Source: Thermoplasmata archaeon
GTDB taxonomy: Archaea > Thermoplasmatota > Thermoplasmata > Methanomassiliicoccales > Methanomethylophilaceae
Direction of reading: 5' to 3'
NCBI GenBank assembly: GCA_015063135.1
Contig: SUTA01000035.1
Coordinates: 1 to 45,027 of the forward strand
DNA: 45,027 nucleotides
The translations under genes were made by a program, and so were the position numbers. This document shows, in pieces, positions 147 through 12,054 of this stretch. Below the pieces are notes generated by a model that was given only the letters and a program-made list of their open reading frames with translations, searched no databases and had not been told where the DNA came from. How positions within the stretch are numbered: the stretch's first letter is position 1; each line of letters starts with the position of its first letter.

Positions 147-272
147 CTAGGTACTGGCGATCAAGGTGGCATTAGGGGGAGCTGCAGGATAACCGAGGAC
201 ATCCTGAACGCTTTCCTCGATGATACCAGGTACGCTAACATCAGCCACGAGTTACCTAACACAGTTATATAA
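147..272 (+). other. possible degraded gene end upstream of the island
   Basis: The first 315 bases contain no gene I can support. A short open stretch here lies between in-frame TAA codons and has protein-like composition in its second half (ITEDILNAFLDDTRYANI). This resembles the start of Rpn/YhgA-type nuclease-transposase proteins, but only loosely. It has no start codon with a ribosome site, and its 3' end runs into the TATA box of the next gene. It could be the scar of a mobile gene at the edge of the AT-rich island, or chance. This is a weak call. Confidence 0.15.
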
Positions 273-276
273 TAAA
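264..276 (+). promoter_or_regulatory. TATA box for the glycosyltransferase-glycyl radical enzyme operon
   Basis: The AT-rich element GTTATATAATAAA lies about 45 bases before the ATG at 316. Transcription starting about 25 bases downstream would leave a leader of roughly 20 bases holding the ribosome site GCGGAGG (about 303-309). Its position inside the longer upstream reading frame (from 220) argues that translation starts at 316, not 220. Confidence 0.55.
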
Positions 277-315
277 CTAACTTTACATGAAAATAAATCC
301 CAGCGGAGGAATTGG

Positions 316-3273
316 ATGGAAGTAATTGCAGTGGTGGTAACGCGCGACAGGTTGGATTTACTGAAAGGTTCATTGTCCTGCCTAATGTCACAATCCGTTC
401 CTCTTAAGAAGATAGTAGTTATAGATAATGCCAGCAGTGATGGTACTACTGAATTTTTAAAAGAGAACACCATCGACATCATTGATTGCATATTCAGCGA
501 AACAAATGAAGGCGGTGCAGGGGGATTCTACAGAGGAATCAAAAGAGCATACGAGATTGGGTGTGATGCTGTCTGGATCATGGATGACGATACATACCCT
601 ACACAAACAGCTTTAGAGGAATTAATATCGGATTATCGCTATCTGCAATCTGCAGGAGCTAAAGTTGGATTTATTACAAGCAACGCCTTATTCAAAGACG
701 GCAAACCATGTCTGATGAATGTTTCCAACCCGGAGTTTGTATGGAACGAACACATTAAACATGGCCTGGTCAGAGTAAAACATAGTTCATTCGTTTCAAT
801 GATGATTCCCACTTATGTCGTCGCTGATCTGGGATTGCCTGTCAAAGAATTTTTCATCTGGGGAGATGATGGGGAGTACTCCACTCGCATTGCCGCAAAA
901 TATGAAGGGTACATGAGCGGAAACAGCACAGTCTATCACATGATGAAAGAAAATGTTGGAGTCGATATCTTCACCATTCCGAAAGATCGTATCAACCGCT
1001 TCTATTATTTTTACAGAAATTGGATGTTTACGAGCATGAGCAGAGGAAAGGAAGAGGAGAAAAATTTTGTCAAAGGCGCTGAACATTTGATAAAAATGAT
1101 AAAAAAGAGTAATACACCATATAAGAAAGAAAAAATCGAAACAATTAGAAAAGGAATAGCAGACGGTAGAAAATTCCATGCTAAAATTGAAAAGGTTCAT
1201 CCACTACCAGAAAAAGAATCAGAGGAAAAGGAACATCAGAATCATCAGTCCGAAAATAAGTATATCAAAATCATCGGAAAAAGGGTAATTCAAAAATGGC
1301 CAAACACCGATTATGGATATGTACAATTCCAATTCAACAGATATAAGCGGATTTCGGACAAGGATCGCTCCGACTTCAAATTCCTTAGAGACGGCTTAAA
1401 CCACTCCAAGATATATGATGGTGAAAACAGGTCATCGGCATTCAAATCATTGATGAATGAAATGGATATCAAACCAATCATTCACGGAACATTTGTAACT
1501 TCTATTGATTATTACAAAAATTGGTGCATACTATTCAGACAAATGGATAATGCACCTGTTGATTACGATTTAGTAATAAATTGCGGCATTAAAGAACTAT
1601 ACCTAAACAGCGAAGATGGTTTTTCCAAAGAAAATGACTGCGTATTAGACGGGATCTGCGATTATATAACGCGCTTAAAAGAAGTAATTTCTAAAACCAA
1701 TAATCCCAATAAAGAGACCATTGTCAAAAATCTTGACAATATGCTTCATTCCAAAGCAACTACTATCGAGGATGCATTGCAGAGAATTATCATCATAACG
1801 CAGATTTTATGGCAAACAGGTCATTATTTGGTTGGCATGGGACGTTTAGATTACATCTTAGATGAAATTATTAAATCTGATGCTCGCGACGATGAAACAA
1901 TTACTCAAATCTTAGATGATTTTATTAAAACGATGCATGAATACTACTGGTACAAAAGTTCTGCATTAATGGGAGATACAGGCCAGATAATAATCTTAGG
2001 AGGATCATCTCCCACAGGCGATTATTTTGAAAATCGGTTGACATACCTTTTCATCGATTCTATCAAAAGATGCAAACTTCCAGATCCTAAGATCCTATTG
2101 AGGATCTCTAGCAAGACTCCACGCAATCTGATCAATTCAGCAGTAGAGTGTATAGGCACAGGCATCGGAAGCCCACTTCTTGCCAATGATGATGTAATCA
2201 TTCCCCGGCTTATTAAATTTGGATATGATGCGGTTGATGCATATAATTACACAACCTCTGCTTGCTGGGAGCCAATACCTGGGAATTCATTTGAACAAAA
2301 TAATATTGCTCACATCAATTTCGTTGAACCATTCAAATTGGTTTCAGAAAAGGAAGTACTTAGCGAGATCTCAACGTTTGAAGAATATTTACACCTCTAC
2401 GAGAACCACCTATATGGCCATTCAGAGTTTATTTTCAATTCGTTAAATGGCATTGTTTGGGAATTCGACCCGGTTGTTTCCGCTTTCTTGAAACCATGTC
2501 GCGACAGAAAAACAGATGTTTCTATCGGTGGCGAGAAATACAATAATTATGGCGTATTAACAAACGGGTTATCAAATGCGGTCAATTCGTTGCTAACTAT
2601 GAAAAAATTGGTATTCGTAGACAAGAAATACACCCTGAGAGAATTCGACCAACAATTAATCGAAAATTATCCAGATGATATCTTATACAATGAAGCAATA
2701 AACAATTCGGATTATTTTGGACATGATGACAATGAAATAATTCATTTGACGAATGAGTTGCTTTATGTTGTTTCAGATGCCGCCTCACATTACAAAAATA
2801 AGTTTGGGGGAACGGTAAAAATAGGCACCAGTTCACCATCATACATCTCTTTAGGATCTATAACACGCGCCTCATTTGATGGAAGGAAAGAGGGAGATCC
2901 TTTCGGAGTCCATATCTCTGCCAAAGGGAACACCCCCTATACTGAACTATTCAATTTCGCATCCAAAATCAGTATTTATGATAATACATTCAACGGTAAT
3001 GTTGTAGACGTAGTCGTGACGCCCAATCTAATCAATGATAATAAAGAGACTTTCATCGATTTGATCAAATCAGCATTGGACATGGGATTCTTTGAGACTC
3101 AATTCAATGTTCTCAGTGCAGATGTATTGAAGGATGCTTATGAACACCCCGACAACTATCCAGATTTAATAGTCAGAGTGTGGGGATTCAGTGCATATTT
3201 TATCGATCTCCCCGAGGACTATCAATTGCTGCTGATTCAAAGGGCTGAGGAATGTGAGTCCTGTAGTTACTAA
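316..3273 (+). CDS. fusion of family 2 glycosyltransferase and glycyl radical enzyme
   Basis: A 985-residue two-domain protein. Residues 1 to about 260 are a GT-A family 2 transferase of the rhamnosyl/galactofuranosyl type: VVVTRDR near the start, a GGAGGF segment, a DDD metal motif at 90-92, a later FFIWGDDGEY motif, then a YYFYRNW stretch. A Lys/Glu-rich linker (about 260-310) leads to a glycyl radical enzyme of about 670 residues. Visible are the active-site loop SACWEP (C650, E652), the GGEKYNNYGV and ASFDGRKEGDP segments, and the glycyl loop VRVWGFSAYF with G957 as radical site, 28 residues from the C-terminus as is normal. Cys-x-Glu matches diol dehydratases, choline lyase and arylacetate decarboxylases rather than pyruvate formate-lyase, which has Cys-Cys. 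The substrate is unknown; a modification of the sugar or acceptor is inferred from the fusion. Start chosen for GGAGG at about 305-309. Base composition is much more AT-rich than downstream genes. Confidence 0.9.
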   Translation: MEVIAVVVTRDRLDLLKGSLSCLMSQSVPLKKIVVIDNASSDGTTEFLKENTIDIIDCIFSETNEGGAGGFYRGIKRAYEIGCDAVWIMDDDTYPTQTALEELISDYRYLQSAGAKVGFITSNALFKDGKPCLMNVSNPEFVWNEHIKHGLVRVKHSSFVSMMIPTYVVADLGLPVKEFFIWGDDGEYSTRIAAKYEGYMSGNSTVYHMMKENVGVDIFTIPKDRINRFYYFYRNWMFTSMSRGKEEEKNFVKGAEHLIKMIKKSNTPYKKEKIETIRKGIADGRKFHAKIEKVHPLPEKESEEKEHQNHQSENKYIKIIGKRVIQKWPNTDYGYVQFQFNRYKRISDKDRSDFKFLRDGLNHSKIYDGENRSSAFKSLMNEMDIKPIIHGTFVTSIDYYKNWCILFRQMDNAPVDYDLVINCGIKELYLNSEDGFSKENDCVLDGICDYITRLKEVISKTNNPNKETIVKNLDNMLHSKATTIEDALQRIIIITQILWQTGHYLVGMGRLDYILDEIIKSDARDDETITQILDDFIKTMHEYYWYKSSALMGDTGQIIILGGSSPTGDYFENRLTYLFIDSIKRCKLPDPKILLRISSKTPRNLINSAVECIGTGIGSPLLANDDVIIPRLIKFGYDAVDAYNYTTSACWEPIPGNSFEQNNIAHINFVEPFKLVSEKEVLSEISTFEEYLHLYENHLYGHSEFIFNSLNGIVWEFDPVVSAFLKPCRDRKTDVSIGGEKYNNYGVLTNGLSNAVNSLLTMKKLVFVDKKYTLREFDQQLIENYPDDILYNEAINNSDYFGHDDNEIIHLTNELLYVVSDAASHYKNKFGGTVKIGTSSPSYISLGSITRASFDGRKEGDPFGVHISAKGNTPYTELFNFASKISIYDNTFNGNVVDVVVTPNLINDNKETFIDLIKSALDMGFFETQFNVLSADVLKDAYEHPDNYPDLIVRVWGFSAYFIDLPEDYQLLLIQRAEECESCSY

Positions 3274-4114
3274 CATCCAAAGATTTTCAATACATGATGG
3301 TCCTGGAATCAGGACCACCATTTTTTTTAAAGGGTGTTCTTTGCATTGCCCCTGGTGTGCAAATCCTGAAACTATTTCTCAAAAAATTGAGTATTATGTG
3401 AAACAAGAATGTTGCATGAGATCTTATGATTCTTGTCCGTATAATCCGAATTGTTCAGTATGCAAGAATCGCATAATCACTTCTGCAGATTATATTGATT
3501 GTAAAATCAATGCAATTATCCGTTATGGATATGAAATTTCTAACGAAGAAATAATGGAATTAATTGAAAGAGATTCCAATTATTACAACAATGGCGGCGG
3601 AGTAACTTTTTCAGGAGGGGAGCCATTATTGCAGCTAGGGGAAAACTTAGAACTACTGTCATCAATCCATAACAAATATCATACAGCAATTGAAACTAGC
3701 CTTTCGACCAAAAAAACTGAACTTGAAAAAATCGATGACTTTATCGATTTATATATAATTGATTTAAAAACAATGATCGAAAAAGATTACAGAGACCTGG
3801 TTCATGGTAATCTTGATGTTTACAAAGAAAACATCCACACCCTTACTAAATTGAATCGTGCCAGTGATACAATTTTCAGAATTCCATTCATCGAAGGATA
3901 TACGAATAAACAAGAAAATATCGATAATATCAATAATCTTTTGGAAGAATATTCTCCGATTGAGATGCAAATATTCACCATACATGATTTAGCCAGTAGC
4001 AAATATCGTATTATGGGTCTAGAACAATTTAAATACAGCAGCTATGAGGAAAAAAACCTTCATACCTTCCTCGATTCCATACACCACAATAATAAAAAAA
4101 TATTGAAATTATAA
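3254..4114 (+). CDS. glycyl radical enzyme activating enzyme (radical SAM)
   Basis: A 286-residue radical S-adenosylmethionine protein that should install the glycyl radical on G957 of the upstream enzyme. C28-x3-C32-x2-C35 in GCSLHCPWCANPE binds the 4Fe-4S cluster, and FSGGEPLL is the SAM-contacting motif. HDGPGIRT just before the cluster is typical of the family. The ferredoxin-like insert between these motifs is short and irregular: cysteines at 53, 54, 61, 67, 70 and 83 instead of the usual two evenly spaced four-Cys sets, so perhaps only one auxiliary cluster forms. The GTG start overlaps the preceding gene by 20 bases, with GAGGA just upstream, so the two are translationally coupled. 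It shares the AT-rich composition of its partner. Confidence 0.92.
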   Translation: MSPVVTNIQRFSIHDGPGIRTTIFFKGCSLHCPWCANPETISQKIEYYVKQECCMRSYDSCPYNPNCSVCKNRIITSADYIDCKINAIIRYGYEISNEEIMELIERDSNYYNNGGGVTFSGGEPLLQLGENLELLSSIHNKYHTAIETSLSTKKTELEKIDDFIDLYIIDLKTMIEKDYRDLVHGNLDVYKENIHTLTKLNRASDTIFRIPFIEGYTNKQENIDNINNLLEEYSPIEMQIFTIHDLASSKYRIMGLEQFKYSSYEEKNLHTFLDSIHHNNKKILKL

Positions 4115-4332
4115 TCAAAAAAAATCTACAATCAAATAATAAATGAATCTGAGATCTGTTTACTTATCAATATCACATTCGATAACCTTATCATTTACCC
4201 AAATACTATAAAAATTAGATATTGTCCATCTTACAATTCATTATAAATGATCGTGATAACATGATAGCCATAGATACCATACTATCCCACTGAAAGAAAT
4301 GTAAGCGTCTAGTGACCTACATCTAATTATTG

Positions 4333-4340
4333 TTTTATAT
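4333..4340 (+). promoter_or_regulatory. TATA box for the sugar isomerase gene, in AT-rich spacer
   Basis: The gap 4115-4383 is AT-rich and holds no gene I can support. TTTTATAT here lies about 45 bases before the ATG at 4384; a second candidate is ATTATAAAT near 4240-4248. A GAGATGA ribosome-site-like stretch (about 4373-4379) precedes the ATG. The base composition changes to GC-rich immediately afterwards, so this spacer is the right edge of the AT-rich island. Confidence 0.45.
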
Positions 4341-4383
4341 CCATTAAGCTATTTCAGAACACTTCTATTGAAGAGATGACAAA

Positions 4384-5424
4384 ATGGGGCAATATCAAAC
4401 CCAAGCACTCAACGACATGGCCATCGAAGTCGAAGGATATGCCAACGATATAGAGAACGGCCTCAAGGTCGAAACCAACATCATGCATTATTACAAACAT
4501 GTGATAATCGCAGGCATGGGTGCATCGGCTATCGGTGGTGCAGTCTATAGAGATTCCATGTACTACCAATCTGCAGTCGAAGTCGATATAGCCAAGACTA
4601 TGGCTCTCCCCGAATGCGCTGATGACGACACCCTCTTCGTAGCATGCTCCTACAGCGGAAACACCTTCGAGACGATAGAACTGTACAACAAAGCCATGGC
4701 CGCAGGCCTGGATACGGTCGTGGTCACCTACGGCGGCGAGCTAGAGAGACTAGCAATTGAAAACAACAACATCCTGCTGAAAATAGGCGGGAACAAGATC
4801 CAGCCCCGCTCCGCCATCGGATGGTTCATCGGAATCGTCGGAGGGATAATAGAGGATGCCGGCGGACCCGGTATCCGCTACCAGCTGAGGAAAATGCTCC
4901 CCTGGCTCAGGGCCTCCCAGGAACACATGGAGGCAGACGACTCCTACACACACTGGATCGCCGATGAGATCACCAAAGAATGCTGCGATATCGGCACGAG
5001 GATACCCGTTGTGTACGGAACCCCAGATCTCGAAGCCATCGCCGTCAGGCTCAAGAACCAGCTCAACGAGAACTCTAAGCTCATCGCATTCTCCGGCGTG
5101 ATGCCCGAATTCAACCACAACGAGATTGTCGGGTGGTACGAGGATTCCCACCGCAGCATATTCCTGCCGATAATCCTGAGGGACTACATGGACAAGGACA
5201 TCTGCAAACTGGTGGATTCTACAGTGGATGTCATGAAGAGGAAAGGATTGTCTCCGATCGTAGTCGACATCAAGGGCGACACCCTCCTGGAAAGGATGGT
5301 ATATTCGATCATGTTCGGGGACCACCTGTCGTTCTACGTCGCAGTTAACAGGAACGTCGACCCCCTCAACGTCGACCCCATCACAGACATCAAGAGGACC
5401 ATAAAGGACAGGCTGGAGCGCTGA
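4384..5424 (+). CDS. bifunctional phosphoglucose/phosphomannose isomerase
   Basis: A 346-residue SIS-fold sugar isomerase of the archaeal PGI/PMI family, which interconverts fructose 6-phosphate with glucose 6-phosphate and mannose 6-phosphate. The evidence is the phosphate-binding loops GMGASAIGG (about residues 39-47) and CSYSGNTFET (about 92-101), and the family-typical segment MPEFNHNEIVGW in the C-terminal half, which carries catalytic Glu/His. Length is normal for the family (about 320-350). It supplies hexose phosphates to nucleotide-sugar synthesis, which fits its place just before glf and galE. A hairpin and a new TATA box follow, so it is probably transcribed separately from glf. 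Confidence 0.9.
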   Translation: MGQYQTQALNDMAIEVEGYANDIENGLKVETNIMHYYKHVIIAGMGASAIGGAVYRDSMYYQSAVEVDIAKTMALPECADDDTLFVACSYSGNTFETIELYNKAMAAGLDTVVVTYGGELERLAIENNNILLKIGGNKIQPRSAIGWFIGIVGGIIEDAGGPGIRYQLRKMLPWLRASQEHMEADDSYTHWIADEITKECCDIGTRIPVVYGTPDLEAIAVRLKNQLNENSKLIAFSGVMPEFNHNEIVGWYEDSHRSIFLPIILRDYMDKDICKLVDSTVDVMKRKGLSPIVVDIKGDTLLERMVYSIMFGDHLSFYVAVNRNVDPLNVDPITDIKRTIKDRLER

Positions 5425-5450: not shown

Positions 5451-5492
5451 AATGGTCCCCTCTTCAATTCTCCATCTCCAATTCCAGCAATC

Positions 5493-5499
5493 AATATAT
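5493..5499 (+). promoter_or_regulatory. TATA box positioned for a leaderless glf transcript
   Basis: AATATAT is centred about 28 bases before the ATG at 5524, the archaeal TATA-to-start distance. No ribosome site precedes this ATG, so the messenger probably begins at or next to the start codon. This supports the start at 5524 over the upstream GTG/ATG choices. Confidence 0.45.
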
Positions 5500-5523
5500 C
5501 CGCTCGGACGATATGCACTGCCC

Positions 5524-6633
5524 ATGGGTAGCATACTGATTATCGGCGCCGGCATCTCTGGTGCCGCACTCGCCAATCTTTGCTCGGAAAAGACCGACAA
5601 AATTACCGTCATCGACAGTTCCGACCACATCGCAGGCAACTGCTTCGACTACCGCGACGGGAACGGGATAATGATCCACAGGTACGGCTCCCACATCTTT
5701 CACACCTCCGACAAGAGAGTGTGGGATTACCTCAACAGGTTCTCCGGATTCAACACGTACATGCACAGAGTGGTCGCGATCATCGAAGGCAACGAGATCC
5801 CCATCCCCTTCAACTTCAACTCCATCCGCATGGCCTTCCCCAAGGAATTGGCCGACAGGATCGAGCACAAACTCCTCCAGAGCTACAAGTACGGCACCAA
5901 GATCCCCATCAAGGACTTCATGACGCAGGATGACCCTGATCTGATATTCCTCGCCGAGTACATCTACGAGAACGTCTTCGTCCACTACACCGAGAAGCAA
6001 TGGGGCTCCAGCTCCTCTTCCCTGGACGGCGCCGTCACCGCCCGCGTCCCCGTTTACCTCTCCAGGGACGACAGGTACTTCCAGAACACCTACCAGGGCA
6101 TACCCCTCGAGGGCTATACCGAGATGATCAGGAAGATGCTGGACAGGCCCAATATCGAAGTAAAGCTGAACACCAGCTTCAAGGACTTCGACTCCTCCGG
6201 CTACGACCTCATCTTCTACACCGGCCCCGTCGACGAGCTCATGGACTACTCCCTGGGACCCCTCCCGTACAGGAGCGTCCATTTCAAAATGGAGACCTAC
6301 GACAGGGAGCACTACCAGTCCGGCGCCGCCGTCAACTACCCCAACAACTACGACTTCACCCGGATCCACGAGTACAAGTACTACCTCGATGACAAATCCG
6401 ACAGGACCGTGATCGCCAAGGAGTACTCGGAGGACTTCGTCCCCGGGAAGAACGAGAGGTACTACCCCGTACCATCCGAAGCCAACAGGGAGCTGTATGC
6501 CAGATATCTTAAGATCGCATCCGAGAAGTACCCCAACATGCGCTTCCTGGGCCGCCTTGGCGACTACCAGTACTACGACATGGACAAGGCCGTCGCCAGG
6601 GCATTCCAGGTGTTCGAAGAGGCGATGCAATGA
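5524..6633 (+). CDS. glf: UDP-galactopyranose mutase
   Basis: A 369-residue flavoenzyme converting UDP-galactopyranose to UDP-galactofuranose in the cytoplasm. The N-terminal FAD-binding loop is IIGAGISGAALANL. The family segments are all present: HRYGSHIFHT, the YTEKQWG motif, the substrate-arginine region PVYLSRDDRYF, and the C-terminal GRLGDYQYYDMDKA. Length is normal for prokaryotic mutases (about 370-390). The start at 5524 places the flavin loop at the N-terminus as in homologues; an upstream in-frame start at 5452 would add 24 residues without family support. The stop overlaps the galE start by 4 bases (ATGA), so the two are co-translated. Confidence 0.96.
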   Translation: MGSILIIGAGISGAALANLCSEKTDKITVIDSSDHIAGNCFDYRDGNGIMIHRYGSHIFHTSDKRVWDYLNRFSGFNTYMHRVVAIIEGNEIPIPFNFNSIRMAFPKELADRIEHKLLQSYKYGTKIPIKDFMTQDDPDLIFLAEYIYENVFVHYTEKQWGSSSSSLDGAVTARVPVYLSRDDRYFQNTYQGIPLEGYTEMIRKMLDRPNIEVKLNTSFKDFDSSGYDLIFYTGPVDELMDYSLGPLPYRSVHFKMETYDREHYQSGAAVNYPNNYDFTRIHEYKYYLDDKSDRTVIAKEYSEDFVPGKNERYYPVPSEANRELYARYLKIASEKYPNMRFLGRLGDYQYYDMDKAVARAFQVFEEAMQ

Positions 6634-7634
6634 ACGTCCTGGTGACCGGCGGGGCAGGGTACATAGGCAGCCACTGCGCGCTGGCACTCATGCAATCGGG
6701 ATACGATGTGGCCGTCTTCGACAACCTCAGCACCGGCCATCAGGAGACCGTGGACACGCTGTCCGGATGCAACCTTCCCGGACGCTTCCTAGGCTTCCAG
6801 AAGGGGGACCTCCTGAGCATGGAGGACCTCGACAGGGCCTTCAAAACATTCCAAATCGATGCCGTAATGCACTTCGCAGCCTTCTCCCAAGTGGCGGAAT
6901 CCATGAAGGACCCGGGCAAGTACTACCGCAACAACGTCCTGGGGACCCTCAACCTCCTGGACGGCATGCGCGCCCACGGCGTTAAAAAGATCGTATTCTC
7001 ATCCACAGCCGCCACCTACGGCGAGCCGGAGTACACCCCTATAGATGAGAACCACCCCCAGAACCCCATAAACCCCTACGGGAGCTCCAAGCTCATGATC
7101 GAGAGGATCATGGACGACTACGACATGGCCTACGGCCTCCGCAGCGTCAGACTCAGGTACTTCAACGTCGCCGGGGCTGACTCCGGGGGCCGCGTCGGCG
7201 AATGGCACGAGCCTGAGACGCACCTCATACCCAACATCCTGAAATCCACCTTCGGAGACGGTAAAGAGTTCAGCATGTTCGGCACCGATTACCCCACCCG
7301 TGACGGCACCTGCATCAGGGATTACGTCAACGTGGAGGACCTCGCAGATGCCCACGTGAGGGCGCTGAAATACCTGGAAAACGGCGGAGAAACGGATTTC
7401 TTCAACCTCGGAACCAACAGCGGCTCCTCCGTGAAGGAGGTGTTCGGCTCCTGCGAGAGGATAACCGGGAAGGCCATTCCTCTGAGGGTATGCGGCAGGC
7501 GCCCCGGGGACCCTGCCGTCCTGATAGCCGACAACAAGAAGGCGAAGGAGACCCTGGGATGGCAGCCCGAGAGGGCCCTGGACGACAGCATCCGCACCGC
7601 GTACGGATGGGAGAAGGCCAACAAACAGCACTGA
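6630..7634 (+). CDS. galE: UDP-glucose 4-epimerase
   Basis: A 334-residue short-chain dehydrogenase/reductase interconverting UDP-glucose and UDP-galactose. The NAD-binding loop is VTGGAGYIGSH. The SSTAATYG strand supplies catalytic Ser/Thr, and PYGSSK is the YxxxK active site. Length and C-terminal motifs (DYVNVEDLADAH, RRPGDPA) are those of GalE. It overlaps glf by 4 bases. Together they form the route UDP-glucose to UDP-galactopyranose to UDP-galactofuranose that feeds the transferases downstream. Confidence 0.96.
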   Translation: MNVLVTGGAGYIGSHCALALMQSGYDVAVFDNLSTGHQETVDTLSGCNLPGRFLGFQKGDLLSMEDLDRAFKTFQIDAVMHFAAFSQVAESMKDPGKYYRNNVLGTLNLLDGMRAHGVKKIVFSSTAATYGEPEYTPIDENHPQNPINPYGSSKLMIERIMDDYDMAYGLRSVRLRYFNVAGADSGGRVGEWHEPETHLIPNILKSTFGDGKEFSMFGTDYPTRDGTCIRDYVNVEDLADAHVRALKYLENGGETDFFNLGTNSGSSVKEVFGSCERITGKAIPLRVCGRRPGDPAVLIADNKKAKETLGWQPERALDDSIRTAYGWEKANKQH

Positions 7635-7649
7635 TATTCGGATGGGAGC

Positions 7650-9257
7650 ATGGCTGAAGACGGATAGGTAGCGATTTTCAACATTCTGCCCTCACCGCGC
7701 ATCACAGTGCCGATGGGCTATGCCGCGTACAACGCGGTGCCCATAGGCCGCTACAGGGATTTCTGCGGCCTAAGCACCGTCTGCCTCGGGACCCACGGCT
7801 ATTCCGGCGGGATCAGGCTTGAGTACCTCCACAGGGACGGGTCCGTGACCGAAACATGCACCGAGATCGGCGACGACGGCATAGACGTCGACATCCTCGA
7901 TGCCGACCTGCTCAGGATCACAAAATAGCCAGACGGCGAGATCGATGGCACCCTATATGTCGATGAATCCCTCGTGAACCCGGTCAAAGTCGGACACGTG
8001 GTGTGCACCTACAGAAGGGAAGAGGATATTGCCGAAAAGGTCTCGGAATTCTCAGAGCCCATACCCGGCCACCATCTGTACATCATAGACAACGGGAACA
8101 CGCTGGAACATATAGAAACCGACAACCTCTCCGTAATCGGCTCCCCCAACCTCGGCGGCAGCGGGGGCTTCACCAACGGGATCCTTCACGCCCTGGACGA
8201 CGGATGCACCCACATCATCCTCAACGACGACGACGCCCTCGTATCGAGGGAATCCGTCTTCAGGATGGTTATGTTCGCCGGCATGCTCCGGCCCGAATTC
8301 AGCGATGCATGCATCGCCGGGACCATGCTCGACATCGGGGACCCCTCCATAGTCTACGAATCCGGGGCGCAGGTGGTGAGCGGATGCCTGCAATCCCTCA
8401 AGAAGGGGCTAGACATCTCAAACGACAAGGACCTCATAGAGCTCTTCGGAGACGAGCGCATAGACTACGTCAACTGGACGTTCCTCTGCATCCCGTCATC
8501 CGCCTTCAGGGAGCACGGGCTGCCCCTGCCGCTGTTCATACACGAGGACGATGTGGAGTTCGGCCTCAGGATCAAGAGAAAAACCATCACCCTCCCCGGA
8601 TTGTACATCTGGCACCCCGCATATTCTGACAAGTTCGCCCCCATCAACTATTACTACTACTCCCGCAACCGCATGGTCGTCCTGTCATGCTCCGGCGGCA
8701 TCCCCGAAGGGTACATCGACAGGATCTGCAACGATATGGGCATAGAGGCCGCCGCGTACCGCTACGAATGCTGCGAGGAGATGATCGACGGCATGAGGGA
8801 CTTCCTGAAAGGCCCCGACCACGTCTTCTCCCTGTGCAGGCAGGGCAATCGCAATGCGAGGACGATCGCTCTCCAGGACGTCGATACTCTCAGGGACGGA
8901 TTGAACCTCATAGACCATGCCCCCGCAGCCGACCAGAAGCACCGTAAGCGCACCCTCAACGGCATAACATCCAGAGCTGTAGGCGACATCGAGGCCTCCC
9001 CCTTCGACATGGACACCGCCCATTTCTACAGAATCGGCAAGGTGCTCTACCGCGTCCGCGACGAAGGATTCATCGCCAAAAGGAGCAGGCTCAAAGCGAT
9101 ATCCTGCGCCGTGAGGATCACCTTGCTAAAACGCAAGGTGAAGAAGGCCGTCCCCGCCCTCGTCGAAGAGTACCAGGCATCCATGGATAGGTACACATCC
9201 AGGGAGTCCTGGGAGGAGATGCTCAGGGAACGATATCCAGGATCCGACCTGCATTAG
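7650..9257 (+). CDS. GlfT-like family 2 glycosyltransferase with in-frame amber codons
   Basis: The uninterrupted part (from GTG 7974) encodes 427 residues of a family 2 transferase close to galactofuranosyltransferases: VGHVVCTYRREEDI, NLGGSGGF, the metal motif NDDD, FIHEDDVEFGLRIK and a YYYYSRNR stretch. The same frame continues upstream to ATG 7650, 15 bases after galE, through TAG at 7665-7667 and 7926-7928. The extra stretch looks like the N-terminal beta-sandwich of GlfT2-type enzymes (YAAYNAVPIGRYRDF, then GEIDGTLYV leading into the catalytic domain), so the two halves form one domain series. The terminal stop is also TAG (9255-9257), with TAA two codons later (9264-9266). GTG 7974 has no ribosome site. 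Either UAG is read as an amino acid (pyrrolysine if the lineage call is right), or the N-terminal domain is decayed. The catalytic domain call is firm; the full-length protein is less certain. Confidence 0.75.
7665..7928 (+). other. two in-frame amber codons within the glycosyltransferase frame
   Basis: TAG at 7665-7667 (codon 6 from ATG 7650) and TAG at 7926-7928 (codon 93) are the only stops between galE and the catalytic domain in this frame; there is no TAA or TGA. Both could also have arisen by a single C-to-T change from CAG. Almost every other gene in the window ends in TGA or TAA, so TAG looks reserved or avoided. I see no selenocysteine-like or other recoding element, and none is required for pyrrolysine. 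Confidence 0.6.
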
Positions 9258-9272
9258 GTTCTTTAATGTATT

Positions 9273-10988
9273 ATGCATCCCACAGTCATGGACCCGCCGA
9301 GCGAGGATATCGAGGTCGTATCGCTCGATATCTTCGACACCCTCATCCTGCGGCCCTTCGCCGCCCCCACGGACCTGTTCCTGCTGATGGAGCAGGAGCA
9401 CGGGTGCCCCGGCTTCCGCGATGCCAGGGTGAAAGCGGAGAGGGACGCCAGGTCCGAGTACGGGCGGGAGATCACCCTCGACGAGATCTACGACCATCTC
9501 CCGGCATCCTTCGATCGGGAATCACTGAAGGAATCCGAGTGCAGGATTGAGACGGACCTCTGCTACGCCGACCCGGAACTGAGGTCATGGGTCTCCGAGA
9601 TCCCCGAAGGGAAGAGGGTCGTCATAATAACCGACATGTACCTCCCCAGGGACGTCATCGCCGGCATCCTGGACCGCAACGGCATACGCTACGACAGGCT
9701 GTACGTCTCATCGGAGATAGGGCTCACCAAGCACGACGGTACCCTCTTCCAACACGTGCTCGACGACATGGGGATACAGCCCGACAGGATGGTCCACATA
9801 GGCGACAATCCCCGCGCGGACCTCCGCATCCCCGAGAGGCTGGGCATCCGCACCATGTTCCGCGAGTCCCGCATCAGCTCCTACCTGAGGACCCATCCCG
9901 ACGAGCGCAGGTACCTTAGGAAGCATCATTCCCTCACATCATCAATCATCGTTGCCCTGGACTCCGTGCGCGGAGCGCACGGGGACGTCTGGGAGGACAT
10001 GGGCGACCGTTACGGCGGCCCACTGGCATACTCCTTCGCCAAGCACATCTCCGACCATCACAATCCCGGATCTGCCGTGCTTTTCGCATCCAGGGACGGC
10101 TACACGCTGATCAGGGCGTTCAGAGTGCTTAACGATGAGCGTAACGTGCACTACGTCCATGCGCCCCGGCTGCTCTCATCCATGTTCAGCGGGCATGTGT
10201 CGGATATCGAGGTTCCGAGCAGGTTCCGCGACTACATCGGGTACAAGCGCGCGCTGTACAACATAAGGCTGGCGCTCGCGTTCTACGCATCCGACCTCGG
10301 CCTCGAATCTATCCCCAATAATGCCGATCAAGTCATTTCCCTGTACGACGGGAACAGGGAGAGGATCGAGAGTGCCGGATCCCTGAAGTTCTCCCAATAT
10401 TCCCAGCACCTCTCATCCATCGCCGGCGACAACGTGGAGATAGTGGACTGCACCACTATGAAGATGTCCAGCCAAAAGCTGATAGAAAAGGCCCTGGGGC
10501 GCAGGGTCCGCGCCCACTACCTAGTGGTCCTCAGGGACTCAGACCAATTCGAGTACGACGCCCTGTGCAGATGGCCCTTCCGTTTCATCGGCTGGGAGCG
10601 CGTCGACATCCCCGAATTCCTGCTGTGCTCCCCCGAGCCCCCCATGAGCGGCTGGTCCTACGGGCCTATCTACGACGACCCCCCGGAGTGGGAGAGGGTC
10701 AGGTGCGAGAACTACCAGAAGATGAGCGACTCCGAGCTCGCGTACGTCGAGAGGATGAGAAGGATCTTCGGGGAGCACCTCCCCTCCTTCGACTACATGG
10801 ACGTCAACAGGTGGGTCATGCTCTCCACGGCCAAGGGCACCCGCTACCGCGAGCTGCTCAGCACCATCAAGTGGGCCAGCAGCCCCGACCACAGCGACTG
10901 GCTCCCGATAATCCCCTGGGACGCGCCGATCAAGAGCACCAGGAGGCTAGCCAACCAGGTCGCGTCCGTCATTAGCCGCAAACGGTGA
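9273..10988 (+). CDS. HAD-superfamily protein of glycan loci (COG5610-like)
   Basis: A 571-residue protein. The first 210 residues or so are a HAD hydrolase-like domain: SLDIFDTLILR (motif I; D19 and D22), IITDMYLP (motif II), TKHDGTLFQ with the motif III lysine, and HIGDNPRADL (motif IV). The remaining 360 residues have no domain I can name, including FASRDGYTLIRAF and a Trp-rich C-terminal half. Such two-part HAD proteins occur in polysaccharide loci; their substrate is unknown and a phosphosugar or lipid phosphate is inferred. It starts 15 bases after the previous TAG stop, or 6 bases after the following TAA. No clear ribosome site is visible, and Met 6 (9288) is an alternative start. It is transcribed with the neighbouring transferases. 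Confidence 0.8.
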   Translation: MHPTVMDPPSEDIEVVSLDIFDTLILRPFAAPTDLFLLMEQEHGCPGFRDARVKAERDARSEYGREITLDEIYDHLPASFDRESLKESECRIETDLCYADPELRSWVSEIPEGKRVVIITDMYLPRDVIAGILDRNGIRYDRLYVSSEIGLTKHDGTLFQHVLDDMGIQPDRMVHIGDNPRADLRIPERLGIRTMFRESRISSYLRTHPDERRYLRKHHSLTSSIIVALDSVRGAHGDVWEDMGDRYGGPLAYSFAKHISDHHNPGSAVLFASRDGYTLIRAFRVLNDERNVHYVHAPRLLSSMFSGHVSDIEVPSRFRDYIGYKRALYNIRLALAFYASDLGLESIPNNADQVISLYDGNRERIESAGSLKFSQYSQHLSSIAGDNVEIVDCTTMKMSSQKLIEKALGRRVRAHYLVVLRDSDQFEYDALCRWPFRFIGWERVDIPEFLLCSPEPPMSGWSYGPIYDDPPEWERVRCENYQKMSDSELAYVERMRRIFGEHLPSFDYMDVNRWVMLSTAKGTRYRELLSTIKWASSPDHSDWLPIIPWDAPIKSTRRLANQVASVISRKR

Positions 10989-11034: not shown

Positions 11035-12054
11035 ATGAATACAAGGGAGGGTCCCAAGGTCTCCATAGTGGCCAGCATCTACAACGGCCGCGCCTACCTC
11101 CCCGGCTTCGTCGACTACATCGACCGCCAGACATTCAAGGATTTCGAGCTGATCTTCGTTGTCGACACCCGCTCCGACGACGGCACCCTAGATGCCGTCG
11201 AAGACGTATGCTCCGGGCGCTCCGATTACCATCTGATCATCCAGGACGGCCCCGGCAGGCTCGGCGGCTCCAAGAACCTGGGCCTCGCCGCCTCCAAGGG
11301 GGACCTCATATGGTTCCTGGACGTGGACGACCTCCCATCCCCGCAATTCCTGGACAGGATGGTATCCGCCGCCGACGATACATCCTCGGACATCGCCATA
11401 TGCAACTTCCTGTTCACGGACGACCCCGACTGGCATGTGGAGCACAGCGACGAGATCATCACCATGTCCGGCGAGACCGCCCTCCACGCCAAGGCGCTGA
11501 ACCTCCTGCCGATAACCTCGTGGTCCATGCTCTACAGGCGCAGCCTCATCGAATCCAACGACCTGACATTCCGCGAGATGATGTGCGAGGACATCGCATT
11601 CACCTACAACGCCATCAGGGCCTCCGGGAGGGTGTGCTTCATACCGGAGCCCCTCTACGGCTACCGCATGAACCCCACGTCCTTCTGCAGGCAGGAGGAG
11701 GACGAGAGGGGGCTGCTGGAGCTGGACAACTACATGCTCCTGTCCGACTCGTTCCCCCCGACGGACCGCTTCATGCAGAAGAGGTTCTGCATCATGGGGA
11801 TGAGGTCCATCGTGCACATGACCGCCCCCGGCATCCGCGAGGCCATAAAGGACCCCAGGCTCGAGGACAAGGTGGATAGATACCTGAAGGCGGGCGGGAG
11901 GCTGGAGTACCGCGTTGCAAGGCGGTTCCCGTCGCTCTACCGCAGGTTCGGCGGATGGTACAACCGCCACTTCTACAACAGGTACGGGAAGGTCTACACC
12001 GACCCCAAGAAGCTCCGCACGCTCCGCAGGATCGTCGACGGCGAGCGCCCCTGA
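11035..12054 (+). CDS. family 2 glycosyltransferase
   Basis: A 339-residue GT-A transferase. KVSIVASIYNGRAYLPGFVDYI at the N-terminus, VDTRSDDGT, and the metal motif WFLDVDDLP (near residue 100) are classic for family 2 enzymes that extend surface glycans. MMCEDIAFTYNAI and a basic C-terminus follow, with no membrane span. Donor and acceptor are unknown; with glf upstream, galactose or galactofuranose is plausible. TCAAATAAG about 25 bases before the ATG may be a weak promoter for a short-leader transcript. Its last 263 bases are overlapped in antisense by the open frame of the convergent surface-protein gene. Confidence 0.9.
   Translation: MNTREGPKVSIVASIYNGRAYLPGFVDYIDRQTFKDFELIFVVDTRSDDGTLDAVEDVCSGRSDYHLIIQDGPGRLGGSKNLGLAASKGDLIWFLDVDDLPSPQFLDRMVSAADDTSSDIAICNFLFTDDPDWHVEHSDEIITMSGETALHAKALNLLPITSWSMLYRRSLIESNDLTFREMMCEDIAFTYNAIRASGRVCFIPEPLYGYRMNPTSFCRQEEDERGLLELDNYMLLSDSFPPTDRFMQKRFCIMGMRSIVHMTAPGIREAIKDPRLEDKVDRYLKAGGRLEYRVARRFPSLYRRFGGWYNRHFYNRYGKVYTDPKKLRTLRRIVDGERP

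Follow-up and report, generated by a model that had tools for sequence, protein, structure and literature searches.

What does a glycyl radical enzyme (GRE) do when it is joined to a glycosyltransferase (GT), and is such a protein real? The question is raised by the start of contig SUTA01000035.1 from a Thermoplasmata archaeon, the whole 45,027-nucleotide stretch of which is called the window here, and in which, according to an earlier note, one gene encodes both enzymes and is followed by the gene of a radical SAM activase. The fusion proved to be real, and at the same time a rare derived form (three were found) of a wider, mostly unfused family of GREs often encoded beside family 2 GT (GT2) or flippase genes; it is this family, larger than the fusion itself, that is the main finding. 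No account of such a fusion or of the family was found among the titles and abstracts listed from the open-access literature, outside which subscription papers mostly lie, and the GRE branch is apparently undescribed so far. As GREs of gut microbes, the review PMC11574389 names class III ribonucleotide reductase, pyruvate formate-lyase (PFL), eliminases, and decarboxylases, in a text that never uses the word “polysaccharide”.

The fusion protein and its recurrence

The open reading frame at 220-3273 is uninterrupted, with 1017 codons counted from its first ATG; the ATG at 316 is preceded by GGAGG, and a start there gives a protein of 985 residues (316..3273; the genes and domains of the window given here up to position 12054 all lie on the + strand), which is the numbering of the earlier note. 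Within this single protein Pfam recovers Glycos_transf_2 (1.6e-12), PFL-like (6e-56), and Gly_radical (4.6e-13) above cut-off, in agreement with the claimed fusion. Residues 1-295 (316..1200) form a GT-A family 2 transferase domain with GlfT2 as its closest solved fold, and the assignment to GT2 is borne out by the Pfam match, the fold, and the DDD metal motif at residues 90-92 (583..591), which is also present in the two other fusions described below; D184-D185 (865..870) belong to a WGDD motif, the WxDD of GlfT-type transferases. A linker at residues ~297-327 (1204..1296) is modeled with low confidence (predicted local distance difference test score below 50 at residues 298-315 and 321-327) and belongs to the fastest-diverging part of the protein, residues 281-345 of the window protein being only 23-26% identical to those of the other fusions.

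The GRE domain (residues 340-985; 1333..3270) takes a GRE fold in the structure model. It carries the catalytic Cys-x-Glu loop with a Trp, C650-W651-E652 (2263..2271; SACWEP from residue 648), and W956-G957 (3181..3186) in the glycyl radical loop RVWGFSAYF (VRVWGFSAYF from residue 953), so that the four sites named earlier (DDD 90-92, C650, E652, and G957) are all where they had been placed. The activase gene (3254..4114, GTG start) overlaps the fusion gene by 20 bases, as had been noted, and its product scores 228.7 bits on TIGR02494 (cut-off 174.35). Membership in the GRE superfamily is supported by the Gly loop and catalytic Cys, the fold, and the protein's own radical SAM activase, and the fusion protein is the sole Gly_radical match of its source genome (87.5% complete). 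With A-C-W at 649-651, the adjacent Cys-Cys pair of PFL is absent and the Cys-x-Glu of the GRE dehydratase/eliminase class is present, as the earlier note had held. Its description of the GRE as apparently complete stands in part: the radical domain is complete and of dehydratase-type fold, but its N-terminal portion has diverged, and it falls 100-190 residues short of the solved dehydratase chains set against it (746-836 residues). The idea that the first 130 GRE residues had been lost was given up: in most structural alignments the match starts near residue 14-30 of unextended dehydratase chains, so that the shortening is internal or spread out.

Single-protein scans of genome contigs and viral contigs gave no match, and the family was reached via a distant relative in a mislabeled phage record. 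An alignment of this relative with the window GRE, used as query in a genome-contig scan whose pattern included ACW, led to 299 confirmed loci, of which the best 80 were kept; rescanning viral contigs with the two-sequence alignment found none, and plasmid and phage searches returned no fusion, with 0 of 226 and 0 of 13 records holding 80% of the query in one place. Three loci (L026, L027, and L028; MT836376, MT836881, and MT836857) are deposited as unverified bacteriophage from faecal samples; the first resembles bacterial DNA, with a GRE, an activase, a sugar transporter, and arabinofuranosidases, and the other two match the GRE and the GT half.

Among the best 80 of the 299 loci, two further complete fusions with the same Pfam domains were found, one in L029 (989 residues; 54% identical to the window protein in the GT and 43% in the GRE) and one in L031 (a 990-codon frame, 988 residues from its Met; 51.5% and 42.6%), which shows that the window fusion is due neither to chance nor to a frameshift in its assembly; an origin by sequencing error is rejected for the same reason. 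Comparison of the three gives saturated synonymous divergence (dS) in both domains and a nonsynonymous divergence (dN) of 0.24-0.57, the linker changing fastest. The three GT halves group together with a support of 0.983, and the three GRE halves with 0.81 in one tree and 0.866 in another, which makes one common fusion event likely.

The fusion is rare in each of several overlapping genome samples. It is confined to the window's own genome among the 102 genomes of its taxonomic family; a search with the GRE half matched 11 others of the 389 genomes in a phylum sample, at no more than 32% identity. An uninterrupted fusion was found in the L031 host alone among 299 genomes of its family, and in the L029 genome alone among 392 genomes of its order, two candidates per genome being scored in both samples, so that fusions may have escaped. 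Of 138 genomes from the family to which one Methanobrevibacter carrier belongs, 19 have a clade GRE match and none a fusion.

The window begins at the end of its 45 kb contig, and the same genome, that of a gut methanogen, encodes the alpha subunit of methyl-coenzyme M reductase. The fusion and activase genes lie in a low-GC cassette (260..4383, limits approximate; strand not applicable), the GC content at third codon positions being 0.42 in the GT, 0.38 in the GRE, and 0.30 in the activase versus 0.71-0.91 in the next six genes. Apart from matching themselves, the first 259 bases of the window find a single match, of 32 bases, across 31 genomes of the genus, its own included. This copy was likely gained horizontally from a low-GC gut anaerobe, and its GRE groups with those of the two bacterial fusions; a misjoin, less likely, would leave the fusion itself untouched.

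Two clades of radical enzymes and their loci

Clade 1 comprises the window, L029-L062, and L068; L026 and all remaining kept loci make up clade 2. The 35 loci closest to the window share 36-46% identity with it and mostly encode stand-alone enzymes of ~680 residues in Methanobrevibacter and Clostridia; by deposited taxon labels, the clade-1 carriers include Methanobrevibacter, Lachnospiraceae (among them bacterium NC2008, L055), other Clostridia, Synergistaceae, an Eggerthellaceae assembly, and Hungatella hathewayi (DSM 13479, L062). Six fragmentary or broken loci (L033, L046, L060, L061, L068, and L106) were assigned to clades by identity alone and left out of the tree and conservation counts; the clade-1 GRE genes of L046, L068, and G559:C51 appear to be broken, in two pieces or by an internal stop. 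A tree was built from 31 clade-1 rows, 16 of the 45 clade-2 rows, and 11 outgroup rows (from 14 sequences tried), 58 in all. In it, clade 1 (0.998), clade 2 (0.999), and their union (1.0) are each monophyletic, and the joined clade is separate from the 11 other GREs, including CutC and a PflD-like row.

C650 and G957 are kept in all 76 clade rows (82 minus the six fragments), and A649, W651, E652, R954, and W956 are, like them, invariant in the 31 clade-1 and 45 clade-2 rows. Both clades thus carry ACWE and RVWG loops (RVWGW-type in clade 2: L063-L108 except L068, plus L026), versus GCVE and RVAG in the GREs compared: of the 11 outgroup rows, 10 have G at position 649, and all have V, I, or L at 651, which accords with the earlier remark that Trp is unusual there, and A or S at 956. 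The invariant Trp residues beside the thiyl Cys and the radical Gly, absent from the outgroup, are therefore a signature of the family, W651 having been partly selected for by ACW in the scan pattern and W956 not. It is a guess that W651 stacks on a sugar.

The genomic setting was compared for 46 clade-2 loci and 41 clade-1 loci, the latter being 35 from the scan and six neighborhoods picked from matches in further genome samples (G686 and G559 are among those left out); neighboring genes were called by a simple script, and one gene cluster (c0) mixes GT2 and GRE because of the fusions. Of 36 clade-1 loci, the window among them, 34 have an activase, and the two that lack it, L039 and L061, are truncated by contig ends. 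Relatives of a Wzx-type flippase (PF01943) occur in 26 of the 41 clade-1 loci versus 0 of the 46 clade-2 loci, and some clade-1 loci hold DUF4422, Bac_transf, or PS_pyruv_trans joined to FrhB. The surface-glycan setting proposed earlier for the window recurs across dozens of related loci. Gene clusters shared within clade 2 are instead LacI (9 loci), ABC sugar transporters (7), AraC (6), class II aldolase (5), GH127 (5), Sugar_tr (5), and FGGY kinase (2), each in a minority, and L026 has arabinofuranosidase genes. These contrasting neighbors place clade 1 in glycan building and clade 2 probably in sugar use, and the latter may be a second undescribed sugar GRE. Related proteins are encoded shortly downstream of both bacterial fusions (L029:11910-14651 and L031:10820-13075); the one in L031 combines a polysaccharide pyruvyl transferase with ferredoxin and FrhB/FdhB domains and is possibly another oxygen-sensitive partner. 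HMGL-like aldolase-type genes lie beside the GRE in surface-glycan loci at L175:1-1563 and L029:3739-5373, with neighbors of cytidylyltransferase type (L175 and L145).

The fused partners also occur as abutting separate genes. In G1111 a GT 54% identical to the fused GT of L029 ends 1 bp before a clade GRE, which is followed by an activase, Wzx, and LicD; in G711 GT and GRE share one frame with a single TAA between them, one match spanning both and 27 bases separating the end of the GT gene from the first GRE start; and in L049 they share a frame separated by TAG and a few codons. A Pfam GT2 gene lies directly upstream of the GRE in L032, L042 (by its cluster representative), L048, L049, L053, L055, and L062. 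The upstream GTs of L049, L053, L055, and L062, the four included in the GT tree, fall outside the fused-GT clade, to which a second GT of the L055 locus, ~7 kb downstream, does belong. The GT half alone, searched against 392 genomes at E ≤ 1e-55, gave 2 matches, a fusion and an abutting GT gene, the first of which was the seed, leaving one independent case; a clade GRE or fusion match was found in 8 genomes of a sample of the same size.

Possible functions and alternatives

The best reading, to which we give an even chance, is that of a bifunctional surface-glycan enzyme combining GlfT-like transfer with a radical elimination that precedes export and acts on the transferred sugar or else on a polyol in that glycan. 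Its observed base consists of the domains, the intact catalytic residues, the fold, the linkage to an activase, the polysaccharide-locus setting of the clade, and the finding of further fusions as well as unfused GT-GRE pairs. The N-terminal transferase would attach its sugar to a glycan that is still growing and probably membrane-bound; the GRE domain, switched on by the adjoining activase, would then perform the radical elimination, in all likelihood a dehydration of a vicinal diol like that catalyzed by glycerol and propanediol dehydratases. The dehydration and the order of steps are inferred, and so is the membrane-bound substrate, for which the sign is the basic N-terminus of stand-alone clade-1 GREs, whose first 60 residues have a median net charge of +10 (range -1 to +20, 28 rows), with +2 in clade 2 (range -5 to +16, 45 rows).

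Several points weigh against this reading. The N-terminal charge depends on the chosen start codon and may partly mirror the low GC of many carriers. H164 and D447 of glycerol dehydratase, which we take to be substrate-binding residues, align to N412 and N663 (at position 412, 46 of 47 clade rows have Asn and 7 of 11 outgroup rows have His; at 663, all 47 clade rows have Asn and 3 of the 11 outgroup rows Asp), so that the reaction cannot be read off the sequence. The examined stretches around all three fusions hold no recognized Wzx gene, which speaks against a flippase model, and the sugar genes around the GRE differ between loci, naming no common sugar. Galactofuranose, hinted at by the neighboring glf gene, is not supported statistically as the substrate: Glf occurs in 11 of the 41 clade-1 loci, besides the window, versus 0 of the 46 clade-2 loci, which are no control for glycan loci, and it is not enriched at the genome level, being above cut-off in 30 of 35 carrier genomes of mixed taxa versus 137 of 150 genomes of the L031 host's family. 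More tentatively, the clade-1 branch would be dedicated to surface-polysaccharide assembly in archaea and bacteria alike, editing sugars already on the growing, lipid-linked glycan; to our knowledge, this would be the first radical dehydratase of the superfamily to act on a glycan instead of a free metabolite, fused in three genomes to the very GT that supplies the sugar.

The alternative that survives best, a real though lesser possibility, is that the GRE acts on a small soluble precursor, such as a nucleotide sugar, a polyol phosphate, or a CDP-polyol, and passes the product to the fused GT for transfer. Fusions of maker and user enzymes are common, and the characterized GRE eliminases known to us act on small molecules. 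Cytidylyltransferase, LicD, or polyol-type genes do lie in L175 (PF01467 and PF04991), L145 (IspD), and L146 (ribulose-phosphate epimerase), but relatives of the L175 cytidylyltransferase and of the L145 IspD each occur in 1 of 41 clade-1 loci (for the former, L175 itself) and LicD in 3, L175 included, while the adjacent flippases and basic N-terminus point to the membrane. A catabolic GRE like those of clade 2, placed in a glycan locus without taking part in glycan assembly, is improbable: the genes that would suit it, for arabinofuranosidases (GH127 among them), transporters (Sugar_tr or ABC), class II aldolase, and FGGY kinase, are found in some clade-2 loci, whereas clade 1 has GTs and flippases in their place, and three times the GRE is fused to a GT. 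A PFL-like C-C lyase or other nondehydrating GRE is suggested by the Pfam name PFL-like, and some decarboxylases also keep Cys-x-Glu; it is nonetheless quite improbable, as the Cys-Cys pair is lacking, C-x-E is kept throughout the clade rows, and the modeled fold appears nearer to dehydratases than to PFL. Very improbable, lastly, is an artifact of assembly or sequencing, which the foreign composition at a contig end and the scarcely matched upstream bases might suggest but which is contradicted by the two further genomes that have the fusion, dS being saturated and dN low for GT and GRE halves alike; a misjoined contig would change the host and not the fusion.

A GRE clade with ties to GTs and flippases would imply that strict anaerobes build surface sugars with oxygen-sensitive radical chemistry, and such sugars would escape current pathway annotation. 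They would lie on gut methanogens and Lachnospiraceae, where host and phage meet surface glycans, and the clade offers clear, testable targets, the named strains of L055 and L062 among them.

Neighboring genes and known systems

Downstream of the activase, the window encodes a phosphoglucose/phosphomannose isomerase-like protein (4384..5424, by profile matches), UDP-galactopyranose mutase (glf, 5452..6633; TIGR00031, 410.9 bits, cut-off 303.75), galE (6630..7634; TIGR01179, 432.2 bits, cut-off 262.3), a GlfT-like protein (7974..9257), and, by Pfam, a HAD-domain protein (9273..10988) and a family 2 GT (11035..12054), the glf, galE, and GlfT-like genes being those reported earlier. The GlfT-like protein reaches 28.5 bits on GlfT2_domain3 (cut-off 27) without any single stretch passing, and 40.9 bits on GlfT1, below the cut-off of 330. 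A run of large proteins follows (17070-44068); one contains a periplasmic-binding domain, several carry repeats of the Big_2, List_Bact_rpt, LRR_5, or PQQ type, and they are probably methanogen surface proteins. No tRNA genes were found in the window.

The window protein falls below the cut-offs of the NCBIfam GRE equivalogs (CutC, HypD, HPAD, HpsG, HpfG, IAD, and PFL; at best 176.6 bits, cut-off 1109) and of the PFL2-3 subfamily model TIGR01774 (227.2 bits, cut-off 678.2). Its GT scores 78.3 bits on the GlfT1 equivalog, well under the cut-off of 330, and differs from GlfT1 and GlfT2 in carrying a GRE. A CutC with a long N-terminal extension (9f3w, 1150 residues) likewise combines a GRE with an additional N-terminal part, but that part has a weak GRE-like match (127-329) and no transferase, and the chemistry is that of choline. 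The anhydrosugar-phosphate GREs YbiW and PflD (8id7 and 8id0) are catabolic; YbiW itself lies outside the tree set, and the PflD-like row, an E. coli plasmid gene so labeled by its pflC neighbor, forms a separate branch with GCVE and RVAG loops. By its modeled fold the window GRE is nearer to dehydratases than to PFL, and the B12-independent glycerol and 1,2-propanediol dehydratases (1r8w and 5i2g) differ from it in length (786 and 796 residues versus 646 here) and in having GCVE and RVAG in place of ACWE and RVWG, while the window enzyme sits in a glycan locus, fused to a GT.

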